A program made the position numbers and the translations under genes. A stretch of 64,000 nucleotides of DNA from Priestia megaterium (lineage in GTDB: Bacteria > Bacillota > Bacilli > Bacillales > Bacillaceae_H): NCBI RefSeq assembly GCF_009497655.1, contig NZ_CP023317.1, positions 1,393,501 to 1,457,500 of the forward strand, read 5' to 3'. Positions 22,822 through 26,835 of the stretch are shown here, in pieces; the stretch's first letter is position 1, and each line of letters starts with the position of its first letter. The notes beneath the pieces were generated by a model that was given only the letters and a program-made list of their open reading frames with translations, searched no databases and was not told the DNA's origin.

Positions 22822-22902
22822 AAAACCTCTCCTTTTCTATGTAAAATGAATAACGCTCCATCTTAGTATATTTCCAAATGTGCACCTTCTATAAGTGGAA
22901 AA

Positions 22903-22941
22903 AAACGCCGAAGACATTCGTAGTTCTTCGGCGTTTTTTTG
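22903..22941 (-). terminator. Terminator of the cotG-like gene
   Basis: AAAACGCCGAAGA/TTCTTCGGCGTTTT stem with A/T runs on both sides, downstream of the minus-strand gene at 22967. Confidence 0.8.
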
Positions 22942-22966
22942 CAATAAAGATGAGTGTTTAGAGAAA

Positions 22967-23299
22967 TTAAGAGCGGCGAGTAGAACGGCGAGAACGGCGA
23001 GTAGAACGACGAGAGCGGCGAGTAGAACGGCGAGAACGGCGAGTAGAACGACGAGAGCGGCGAGTAGAACGACGAGAGCGGCGAGTAGAACGGCGAGAAC
23101 GGCGAGTAGAACGACGAGAGCGGCGAGAAGAGCGACGCGTACCGCGGGTAGAACGGCGAGAGCGGCGGCCAGTGCTACGAGAAGAGCGACGTGGCTTTGT
23201 TAGTGGACCGGCAGTTGGCTCTTGAAACATAAAAGATTTCAGTTCTGTACATTCTAGGGCTTCAGCAGCCTCTTTAATTTTTTCAGGTGTAATATGCAA
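22967..23299 (-). CDS. Arg/Ser-repeat CotG-like spore protein
   Basis: 110 residues. A 36-residue non-repetitive head (MHITPEKIKEAAEALECTEL...) is followed by 74 residues made almost entirely of Arg, Ser and Thr. The last 49 are seven perfect copies of RRSTRRS, and the stop follows the final copy directly. I use the TTG at 23299, 8 bases after AAGGAGG. It is divergent from cotH, the same arrangement as B. subtilis cotG-cotH, and CotH phosphorylates serines in CotG. I infer a CotG-like outer-coat substrate of CotH. A protamine-like DNA-binding role is the alternative. Name not assigned because sequence homology to CotG is compositional. Confidence 0.72.
   Translation of the reverse strand: MHITPEKIKEAAEALECTELKSFMFQEPTAGPLTKPRRSSRSTGRRSRRSTRGTRRSSRRSRRSTRRSRRSTRRSRRSTRRSRRSTRRSRRSTRRSRRSTRRSRRSTRRS
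22970..23116 (-). repeat. Seven 21-bp tandem repeats encoding RRSTRRS
   Basis: Seven consecutive 21-base units. Two synonymous variants (GGCGAGAAC and GACGAGAGC types on the + strand) partly alternate, as expected from duplication of a 42-bp double unit. Copy number should differ between strains. Confidence 0.85.
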
Positions 23300-23470
23300 T
23301 ACAAAAACCTCCTTGTCAATTGGACTAGGTCTTGCATTAATAGAATACGCGCTGATGCTTGTCCTTGATATGAGTCAAAAGTGGAGTTTGCGGAAATAGT
23401 TGATGCTGCGGGGTATCATGGAGAATTTACCCTTCATATACTTTAATAATTGAAGAAAGGTGGTCGAATC

Positions 23471-24556
23471 ATGAAGCAAAAAGAAGTCCCTCAATACGCT
23501 CTGTTTGTGAATGTAAAAGATTTAAAGGAAATGCAAAGAGATATTTGGTCAGAAGAAGCGGTTCAGGCAACGATGAAGTTTAACAAAAAACGCTACGATA
23601 TTGATTTGCTCCTAAGAGGCTCCCATATTCGGAAGATGAAGAAAAAGTCATATTATATTGAATTTTATTCTCCGAAAATATTTCAGCGCGCCAAAGAAAT
23701 ACACCTAAACGCTGAATACAAAGATCCATCGCTTATGCGTAACAAATTGTCCCTCGATTTTTTCTCTTCTTTAGATGTTTTATCTCCCCACTCTCAGTTT
23801 GTCACTCTTAAGATTAATGGGAAAAATGAAGGAATATATCTTCAGCTCGAATCGGTAGATGAACTATTTTTGAAAAAAAGAAATTTAGCGGATGGATCCA
23901 TATTTTATGCAGTAGACGGAGATGCTAATTTTTCTTTGATGAGCGATTTGGATAAAAAGCCAAAAACAACTTTGTTATCTGGATATGAAGATAAAGCAGT
24001 GAGAGAAGGAGACGAGGAAAAATTAGAAAAGTTTATATTTAATCTTAATACATGGACAAATACGGAATTCGAACAGAATATTGAGAAGTACCTGAACGTC
24101 GACCGCTACTTATCTTGGTTAGTCGGTATTATTTGTATGCAGAATTACGACGGTTTTGTCCATAACTATGCGCTCTATCTAAATCATGAAAGCGGGCGCT
24201 TTGAACTGATTCCATGGGATTATGATGCAACTTGGGGAAGAGATGTAAATGGAAAAGTAATGGAAGGAGACTATGTCCGTGCACAAGGATTTAATACGCT
24301 TACAGCTCGCTTACTGGCGGTGAACAGCATTAAAAAGAGATATATTCAAAAAATGAACAATGTTCTAAATAATCAATTTACAATAGAATACATGAAACCA
24401 ATCATTTATCAACTGCATGAGTATATTGCTCCATATGTATTAAAAGATCCTTACGTAAAAGATAACTTGGAGCAATTCCATAAGGAACCAGACCTTATGC
24501 TTTCTTTCGTAAAAGACCGAACAGCGTACATTAAAAGTCATCTTTTTGATTTTTGA
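23471..24556 (+). CDS. cotH: Spore coat protein kinase CotH
   Basis: Atypical protein kinase of the CotH family that phosphorylates coat proteins CotB and CotG in the mother cell and is needed for outer coat assembly. 361 residues. The central LRGSHIRKMKKKSYYIEF segment fits the family's RG-S...KKSY motif, and the catalytic region has NYALYLN and PWDYDATWG, with D250 and D252 as likely metal/catalytic residues. I start at ATG 23471, 8 bases after AAAGGTGG, not at the TTG at 23450. It lies between the CotG-like gene (divergent) and cotB. Confidence 0.92.
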   Translation: MKQKEVPQYALFVNVKDLKEMQRDIWSEEAVQATMKFNKKRYDIDLLLRGSHIRKMKKKSYYIEFYSPKIFQRAKEIHLNAEYKDPSLMRNKLSLDFFSSLDVLSPHSQFVTLKINGKNEGIYLQLESVDELFLKKRNLADGSIFYAVDGDANFSLMSDLDKKPKTTLLSGYEDKAVREGDEEKLEKFIFNLNTWTNTEFEQNIEKYLNVDRYLSWLVGIICMQNYDGFVHNYALYLNHESGRFELIPWDYDATWGRDVNGKVMEGDYVRAQGFNTLTARLLAVNSIKKRYIQKMNNVLNNQFTIEYMKPIIYQLHEYIAPYVLKDPYVKDNLEQFHKEPDLMLSFVKDRTAYIKSHLFDF

Positions 24557-24687
24557 ATTTTACTAGACTGATAGGCAAAAGTGGAATTTAAGAATAATAG
24601 GCAAATGCAGGAAGACAATAGCTGTACATGATACGTATATATACATTATGAATGACCAATAAGGACAATTAATAAGGAGGAAAAATA

Positions 24688-25767
24688 ATGAGTAACTATT
24701 ACTACGACCAAAATCAAGACCAAACTCAAAATGCCAATCGTAGTCGCGCTCGTAAAGTTCAACAATCTGAAAGCACGGGCTACTCTGCCCACTTTAAACC
24801 ATTAAAAGGGAGAGTAGTAACTGTCTATCGCGGGGGGCCTGAATCTAAAACGGGATATTTAATCGACGTTCAATCAGATTATTTAACACTTGCTCTTGAA
24901 ACAAAACAAAATAACAATCAGCAAAATAATCAACCGGCGCAGCTTATTCCACAACAGCAATATACATTTATTTATTACCAGCTCGCTCATGTTAAAAGCA
25001 TTACAGAGGATACAAAGTCTAATTCCGCGCAAACATTTTCTGGATTTAATAGTGAAGTAGAACTGCACAGAGCCAACACATTTGCAGGCACTTTATTATT
25101 GATGAAAGATAAACAAGTGCAAATAAATCAAGGAGGGCCAGAGAAAAAATTGGGTAAGATCCTTGATGTATTAGGCTCATTTGAATCTGCGTATGTCGTA
25201 TTACTAACAGAAGATGACGGCGTCGTTTATATCAATGTAGAGCACATAAAGAGTGTAAGTGAAGTTGTAAGCAAAAATACGCCTGTTGTTCCGCAAAACC
25301 CATTATTAGTTGAAGAGACACCTGAGTATATTAAAGCGAAAAGTTTCAATGAACTGTTTGAAGAGTTTTCGCATAGATGGGTAGCTATTAACGGCGGAGG
25401 GCCAGAGGCTGTAGAAGGTGTGTTAGTTCAAAGTCGCAATGGAAACTTTACTCTTGTACAAAATAATCAAGTTCTACGTTTACAACCAAGACACGTAAAA
25501 ACCATTGCCTTAGGATCAAAAGGATCTTTCAAGCAAAATGAAGAAAATTCTGAGCAAAATGGAGATACAAATGAAGAAGATTCTGTGCAAGAATCAACTA
25601 CTGTAGATAGAACCGGAGGTCGCACGGATGGCCGTACTGGAGACCGTACCGGAAGACGTACAGGAGGTCGCACAGACGATCGCTCGGGAGGTCGCCGTAC
25701 GGGTTCACGCTCTTCAACACCAGGTGAAAAAGTTATTAAAACGAAAAATTATCGTTGGAAAGCATGA
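24688..25767 (+). CDS. cotB: Outer spore coat protein CotB
   Basis: 359 residues. Three related beta-rich segments with the motif GGPE (near 50, 150 and 235) form the CotB core: VVTVYRGGPESKTGYLIDV, VQINQGGPEKKLGKIL, WVAINGGGPEAVEGVL. The C-terminus (about 305-345) is a Thr/Arg/Gly repeat tail (RTGGRTDGRTGDRTG). In B. subtilis the CotB tail is Ser-rich and phosphorylated by CotH; here Thr would be the main acceptor. AAGGAGG precedes the ATG. The cotH neighbour supports the role. Two hairpins follow it at 25780. Confidence 0.9.
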   Translation: MSNYYYDQNQDQTQNANRSRARKVQQSESTGYSAHFKPLKGRVVTVYRGGPESKTGYLIDVQSDYLTLALETKQNNNQQNNQPAQLIPQQQYTFIYYQLAHVKSITEDTKSNSAQTFSGFNSEVELHRANTFAGTLLLMKDKQVQINQGGPEKKLGKILDVLGSFESAYVVLLTEDDGVVYINVEHIKSVSEVVSKNTPVVPQNPLLVEETPEYIKAKSFNELFEEFSHRWVAINGGGPEAVEGVLVQSRNGNFTLVQNNQVLRLQPRHVKTIALGSKGSFKQNEENSEQNGDTNEEDSVQESTTVDRTGGRTDGRTGDRTGRRTGGRTDDRSGGRRTGSRSSTPGEKVIKTKNYRWKA

Positions 25768-25778
25768 TGAACTGGAAC

Positions 25779-25806
25779 ATAAAAGGTGCTTATAAAGCAC
25801 CTTTTC
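25779..25806 (+). terminator. Hairpin between cotB and its paralogue
   Basis: AAAGGTGCTT/AAGCACCTTTT with loop ATA, followed by a short pyrimidine run. It may partly terminate cotB transcription and lower expression of the downstream paralogue. Confidence 0.65.
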
Positions 25807-25836
25807 TATCATATAGGAAAAAGGAGGAGAATGAGT

Positions 25837-26499
25837 ATGAGTATGAATCATTATATTGATAAAATTGTTGAAGTCGATATATCAGGTAAAACAACGTTTG
25901 TAGGAAAACTTGTTGATCTCGGGTTAGATGTAATGGTTTTATATAATGGACATGATTATTTGTATATTCCTCTTTTACACATACATCGCTTACGAGAGGT
26001 TTCAGAAGAAGATTATACACCTTTACGAACCATAGAAGAGAACTTAATAGAAGAAAGTCAGCGGATTTCTTATCGTAATATTTTACAGCAGGCAAAAGGG
26101 AAATTTATTGAAATTTATGTAACAGGAGGAAAATCATTGCATGGCTATATTACAAGCGTGCTGAATGATTATCTTGTGTTTTATTCTCCAGTGTATAAAA
26201 ATGTCTTTGTTTCTCTACATCATTTGAAATGGCTTACCCCTTATAGTAATGAGTTAACCCCTTATTCTTTAAGTGACAAAGAGCTCCCAGTAAGGCCTGC
26301 CTCTGCACCTTTTGTCAGAAACTTTGAAGAGCAGCTTAAAAAATATGAAAATCAACTGGTCGTATTAGATTTAGGGGATCAATCAGAAAAAATTGGCGTA
26401 CTTAAAGAAGTTTCTAATAATATTGTTGAACTAATTACGGCAAATGGAGAAAGTATGTATTGGAAGTTAGCTCACGTAAAATCTGTGCACTTGCCTTAG
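25837..26499 (+). CDS. Short CotB paralogue without repeat tail
   Basis: 220 residues from ATG 25837, 9 bases after AAGGAGG; ATG 25831 is also in frame. Three segments echo CotB: IVEVDISGKTTFVGKLVDLG, FIEIYVTGGKSLHGYITSVL and LVVLDLGDQSEKIGVLKEV. Each ends in a line like LLHIHRLREV or LAHVKSVHL, corresponding to CotB's LAHVKSITE. The GGPE glycines and the phosphorylatable tail are missing. It probably arose by duplication and may be a structural coat protein or CotB partner that CotH does not modify. It is in line with cotB, and a terminator follows. Confidence 0.72.
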   Translation: MSMNHYIDKIVEVDISGKTTFVGKLVDLGLDVMVLYNGHDYLYIPLLHIHRLREVSEEDYTPLRTIEENLIEESQRISYRNILQQAKGKFIEIYVTGGKSLHGYITSVLNDYLVFYSPVYKNVFVSLHHLKWLTPYSNELTPYSLSDKELPVRPASAPFVRNFEEQLKKYENQLVVLDLGDQSEKIGVLKEVSNNIVELITANGESMYWKLAHVKSVHLP

Positions 26500-26665: not shown

Positions 26666-26835
26666 CTCTTATCAAGAGTGGCGGAGGGACTGGCCCTGCG
26701 ATGCCCGGCAACCATCAAATGAAACATTCATTTGAACGGTGCTAATTCCTGTGGAACATCAGTATTGTTCTAACAGATGAGAGAAATCGTGTATAAACGA
26801 ACACTCTTCCATCTGTGAAGAGTGTTTTTTATTTT
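26666..26835 (+). promoter_or_regulatory. SAM-I (S-box) riboswitch with terminator
   Basis: S-box hallmarks in order: CTCTTATCAAGAG P1/P2 start, GTGGCGGAGGGACTGG, CCCTGCGATGCCCGGCAACC, GGTGCTAATTCCTG, and the closing GATGAGAG (to 26783). The expression platform follows: terminator ACACTCTTC/GAAGAGTGTTTTTT (26801-26827). CAGATGAGAG can instead pair with CTCTTCCATCTG as antiterminator. High SAM should terminate metI-metC. Confidence 0.96.

Follow-up and report, generated by a model that had tools for sequence, protein, structure and literature searches.

A putative Priestia counterpart of the Bacillus subtilis cotG-cotH-cotB-ywrJ spore-coat module, and CotB tails in relatives with and without the kinase CotH

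According to our analysis, the four genes at positions 22967 to 26499 of a 64,000-nucleotide stretch of a Priestia genome (contig NZ_CP023317.1; the whole stretch is called the window here) most probably constitute the Priestia counterpart of the cotG-cotH-cotB-ywrJ genes of B. subtilis, a reading to which we assign a probability of roughly 0.86 and in which the kinase CotH would be expected to phosphorylate the repeats of CotG and the tail of CotB. A comparison across genomes adds that the arginine-serine/threonine pattern is mostly missing from the CotB tails of relatives lacking the kinase. The initial annotation had placed a divergent Arg/Ser repeat gene, a CotH kinase, a tailed CotB, and a tailless CotB paralogue in this interval, and all four are present:

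22967..23299, minus strand: CotG/ExsB-family gene, 110 amino acids (aa), identified by the model NF047410, its repeat array, and its composition
22970..23167, minus strand: tandem array with a 21-nucleotide period encoding the 7-residue unit RRSRRST (Tandem Repeats Finder)
23471..24556, plus strand: CotH spore-coat kinase, 361 aa, with an intact PWDYD motif (Pfam PF08757, PDB 5jd9, catalytic columns)
24688..25767, plus strand: CotB, with a three-repeat N-terminal part, an R-T-G-G tail, and the end peptide IKTKNYRWKA (DUF6897, alignment)
25837..26499, plus strand: tailless CotB paralogue, YwrJ-like, 220 aa (profile comparison, structure model)

The host genome measures 5.24 Mb, and we refer to it as P. 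megaterium-type, which we take to be the name of its species group; the closest named CotH locus that we found is that of Priestia aryabhattai (97% identity).

The kinase, for which ATG 23471 is a better start than that of the mechanical frame, scores 294.9 bits against Pfam PF08757 (cut-off, 23.8; profile positions 3 to 322 of 322) and matches PDB 5jd9, "Spore coat protein H," with an E value of 6e-128. Its PWDYD motif is indeed intact, as had been claimed. D227, D250, and D252 stand in columns occupied by D in 99 of 99 alignment rows (92 distinct sequences), and the first two correspond to the catalytic D228 and D251 of B. subtilis. The CotH family has a single match in the whole genome. That CotH phosphorylates CotB and CotG is, as the initial annotation stated, established in B. 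subtilis (PMC7821199). The divergent gene has a TTG start with a GGAGG site ahead of it, spotted by eye, and encodes a conserved N terminus that ends in FMFQEP and scores 38.5 bits (cut-off, 28) against the NCBIfam CotG/ExsB N-terminal model NF047410, for which the control genome of B. subtilis also gives a match. The 82 residues beyond FMFQEP hold the RRSRRST repeats, encoded by a single tandem array of 9.4 copies with 85% matches; they comprise 40 R, 22 S, 12 T, 1 K, and no D or E, with a net charge of +41.

The N-terminal part of CotB consists of three repeats with GGPE motifs (alignment of 16) and scores above the DUF6897 cut-off. It is followed by a tail of 83 residues, rich in Thr and Gly, with about 10 R-T-G-G-like units, 14.5% Arg, and 12 Ser/Thr-Arg contacts per 100 residues; C-terminal peptides similar to IKTKNYRWKA occur in relatives. 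We compared the tails of 42 genomes of the 348-genome panel surveyed below, the window's included, in which the CotB match extends over most of the three-repeat model (shorter matches were excluded): 20 have CotH in the same locus, 5 have it elsewhere, and 17 are without coat-type CotH, defined by a frame no longer than 404 aa and excluding the split gene of genome G113. Tails with no Ser/Thr-Arg contact were found in 1 of 20 CotH-linked genomes versus 12 of 17 without coat-type CotH, and the genus medians were 6.8 contacts per 100 residues (CotH-linked, 9 genera) versus 0.0 (CotH-free, 12 genera; P = 0.005). Arginine made up 11.0% of CotH-linked tails versus 2.2% of those without coat-type CotH (P = 0.017), and lysine made up 8.1% versus 23.9% (P = 0.036). 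Two loci of the CotH-free group, both kept in the main counts, deserve a comment. L130 lies near a contig edge, so that its CotH state is not judgeable; at L135 (3220-3945, minus strand), CotB has no first part and adjoins a transporter-like gene, no CotH is present there, and the paralogue is intact, which looks like a recent loss. When both are omitted, the genus test gives P = 0.0006. Genome G181 has no CotH match at an E value of ≤0.001, and its locus L143 (244-372, minus strand) holds a 42-residue frame resembling CotH around NYDGF, likely a remnant of the gene, which points to loss of CotH in that genome. In the literature searched, which was mainly open access, no title or abstract opening showed a report of the link between tail and kinase; one may exist.

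The tail of CotB could be a record of the kinase. We advance this tentatively and at somewhat below even odds: where CotH is lost, the Arg-Ser/Thr tail would yield, often to a Lys-Asp/Glu chain whose fixed charges replace phosphate, while the Sm-like CotB/YwrJ core is kept; the CotH of P. megaterium-type genomes would serve three substrates, including a Ser-type CotG and a second, Thr-richer one encoded elsewhere. Several points weigh against the reading of the cluster given at the outset. Between the groups of the 42-genome set, neither the net charge of the tail (P = 0.24) nor its acidic share (P = 0.64) differs. Fewer than 3 contacts per 100 residues were counted in 4 of the 20 CotH-linked tails (L119, L148, L151, and L156) and in 3 of the 5 genomes with CotH elsewhere, and at least 3 were counted in 3 of the 17 without coat-type CotH (L130, L135, and L137). 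Averaging by genus corrects for descent only roughly. The Thr shares of CotG and CotB, which correlate across 18 loci (rho = 0.61, P = 0.008), do not do so significantly by lineage group (rho = 0.44, P = 0.18, 11 groups). The repeat region of CotB is dispensable for outer-coat structure in B. subtilis (PMC7821199), and sharing an Sm-like fold says nothing about function. The CotH of L119, whose motif reads PWDCD, was also considered as a decaying gene, a candidate that we rejected since its catalytic columns are intact.

Charge was at the center of another claim of the initial annotation, namely, that phosphorylation would balance the dense positive charge of the repeats. For CotG this is published in B. 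subtilis, where reducing the positive charge of the CotG repeats reportedly makes phosphorylation unnecessary for assembly (PMC9765600). For CotB tails, we discarded charge balance as the shaping force, since their net charge per length did not differ between groups; basic-acidic contacts, too, show no group difference in the 42-genome set. A different use of the charge would be that the Arg-rich tail mainly serves to bind a polyanion, silica or another, on the spore surface and that phosphorylation only adjusts this binding. The zwitterionic C terminus of a Bacillus cereus CotB1 is reportedly needed for spore silicification, with its basic end binding silica (PMC11818168). However, tail makeup tracks the presence of CotH, a pattern not expected from silica binding alone, and Lys-Asp/Glu chains number 7 among the 17 tails of the group without coat-type CotH versus 1 among the 20 CotH-linked tails; we consider the silica explanation improbable.

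How the four genes travel was surveyed in 348 genomes sampled evenly from the order. CotB was detected in 101 (E value of ≤1e-10), the CotH family in 95, of which 65 counted as coat type, the tailless paralogue in 94 (E value of ≤1e-20), and the CotG N terminus in 38 (E value of ≤0.001; 36 above the cut-off). CotG co-occurs with coat-type CotH in 38 of 38 genomes, adjacent and divergent in 37 of them, and the paralogue co-occurs with CotB in 91 of 94, whereas CotB is found without coat-type CotH in 51 genomes and CotH without CotB in 15. CotH-CotG and CotB-paralogue are therefore two separable couples. The short CotG model gave no match in 27 of the 65 genomes with coat-type CotH; because of these blanks, and of a frame with FMFQEP in the CotH-free Priestia genome G005 that went unreported, it can be said to miss CotG-like genes. 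In Bacillus inaquosorum and Bacillus spizizenii (L013 and L016, 7083-8100), a LysR-type gene directly follows cotH and cotG is present; a match to CotB or the paralogue was not found in these fetched loci.

The paralogue, whose better start lies at about ATG 25837, aligns with CotB by profile comparison (97.3% probability, 215 columns, E value of 2e-11), so that the CotB likeness claimed for both proteins is confirmed. Its structure model (mean pLDDT, 84.0; pTM, 0.80) predicts three Sm/Lsm-like units; among the 50 fold matches listed, most fall on residues 158 to 220, with one or two each for 1 to 54 and 82 to 220. Besides many Hfq-like chains, it resembles the spore-coat protein GerQ (PDB 8zra, solved as filaments), at 8% identity and with a Z score tied with many Hfq/Lsm chains, that is, a resemblance of fold and not of family. 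The predicted fold and the likeness to GerQ fit a scaffold role without proving it. The unmodified scaffold proposed in the initial annotation would also accord with the missing tail and with an occurrence that goes with CotB and not with CotH. The protein is best read as the counterpart of YwrJ, because gene order and orientation match B. subtilis cotG-cotH-cotB-ywrJ; we assign the name by gene position and by comparison with relatives. That the paralogue instead docks or regulates CotH is suggested by its position in a kinase cluster, but of the 17 loci fetched from genomes that lack coat-type CotH, 15 have it next to CotB, and it tracks CotB in the survey; we consider a docking or regulatory role quite unlikely.

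For the repeats of CotG, the initial annotation contrasted a Ser-dominated design with the Thr-dominated one of CotB. Both are present here, and both occur under CotH in other genera too: across the 18 named loci with both genes, Thr accounts for a fraction of 0.02 to 0.93 of the basic-flanked Ser/Thr of CotG. Named CotH loci numbered 80, of which 10 were dropped (5 with short upstream DNA and 5 without an intact CotH frame); in 52 of the remaining 70, a basic, Ser/Thr-rich frame lies divergently upstream, versus 11 of 1,694 control frames. This frequency beside CotH, the absence of D and E beyond FMFQEP in all five cluster copies of P. megaterium type, and the restriction of CotG family matches to genomes with CotH in the 348-genome panel make it very unlikely that the repeats are low-complexity sequence prone to slippage, of little specific function and clustered with CotH by inherited history, even with lengths past FMFQEP of 82 to 171 residues among close relatives and repeat designs that diverge widely among genera.

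Within Priestia (10 genomes compared), all four cluster genes occur in five genomes, those of P. megaterium type, to which the window's genome belongs. G002 and G004 have CotH and a match to the CotG N terminus, and CotB and the paralogue were not found in them; the CotG of G002, the only one of the two readable whole, is rich in Lys, Ser, and His. G009 combines CotH with a weakly basic CotG (model match under the cut-off) and an acidic CotB tail. In the CotH-free G005, the CotB tail is Lys-Glu, and the CotG place is taken by an acidic FMFQEP protein (locus L115, 6700-7131) with a net charge of -13 past the motif. G007 lacks CotH as well as a CotG model match; a CotG-like frame was not seen in the stretch before CotB, whose tail is short and Lys-Glu rich. 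The P. megaterium-type genomes carry a further gene of the family outside the window:

G000:C1:1213722-1213799 (loci L091 and L125), minus strand: orphan second CotG/ExsB gene, 127 aa (CotG N-terminal model)

It is present in all five of these genomes, apart from the single CotH, and in the window's genome it lies about 203 kb from the cluster. Its product has RRTT/RRST repeats and a Cys-rich end, and Thr exceeds Ser in four of the five. Because this gene exists, the two substrates in the cluster are probably an incomplete set. A DNA pattern scan of the window's own genome for Arg-Ser/Thr repeats gave 18 matches versus 24 in the control, a chance level; the chosen spacing is absent from the repeats, and the scan is uninformative on further substrates.

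In the working that we propose, CotH would be produced late in the mother cell and would phosphorylate Arg-adjacent Ser/Thr in the disordered CotG repeats and the CotB tail. CotG would be an obligate client of the kinase, requiring phosphate for stability and assembly. CotB and the tailless paralogue, as Sm-like repeat proteins, would form a separate structural couple, equipped with a tail readable by the kinase mostly in genomes with linked CotH, with the paralogue most likely the scaffold partner of CotB and not a main phosphorylation target. From the comparison, CotH-CotG emerges as a couple of kinase and client, distinct from the structural couple CotB-YwrJ, and the kinase-free relatives in the same genus offer natural controls for why coat proteins get phosphorylated. 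According to a published idea, phosphorylation on Ser versus Thr helps to choose between coat or crust and exosporium. Two CotG types under one kinase let the Ser/Thr question be asked cleanly, and, if the tail is a record of the kinase as tentatively proposed, that idea could be examined within one species.

Beside the cluster, one further element bears on its transcription:

22898..22940, no strand assigned: stem-loop with T runs on both strands, a likely two-way terminator 3' of the CotG-like gene (fold)

Folding of 22895 to 22945 gave z values of -6.3 and -7.5; the stem-loop is absent from the list of the consensus scan. Because of it, a long cotH leader enclosing cotG, as in B. subtilis, seems unlikely in this cluster. 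On the appropriate strand ahead of cotG, cotH, and cotB, the sigma-K -10 consensus CATANNNTA is not matched exactly, and matches to CATANNNTA in the window number 47 versus 38.7 by chance. Downstream of the cluster, a SAM riboswitch (26666-26783, plus strand) precedes two genes that we read as methionine-pathway enzymes.

The cluster itself is an ordinary example of a known spore-coat module. In B. subtilis, the row reads ywrJ, cotB, cotH, cotG (PMC6768931), with cotG divergent from cotH and cotB codirectional with it (PMC7821199); the window shares this arrangement, the basic Ser-rich repeats, and the active-site residues, and ywrJ adjoins cotB as the paralogue does here. Bacillus mojavensis has a 225-aa counterpart of the paralogue at the corresponding place, and ywrJ is counted among the sporulation genes that most bacilli have and clostridia lack (PMC3533761). 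The differences lie in the repeats, which are of Ser, Lys, and Arg in B. subtilis and Arg-based in Priestia (RRSRRST and RTGG), in the CotB tail, Ser/Lys-rich in B. subtilis versus Thr/Gly-rich in Priestia, and in the shorter Priestia CotG. The B. cereus group is also reported to have two CotB paralogues, and its ExsB is reportedly phosphorylated on Thr (PMC7821199); NF047410 covers ExsB by name, whereas the cluster CotG of the window is Ser-dominated and the orphan CotG outside it Thr-richer. The proposal of one kinase acting on two Arg-Ser/Thr substrates gains from the single CotH, its intact Asp residues, the published chemistry, and the contacts that track linked CotH, but it describes a known module: for the kinase, its two types of substrate, the idea about charge, and the paralogue alike, there is either a published account or a direct counterpart.
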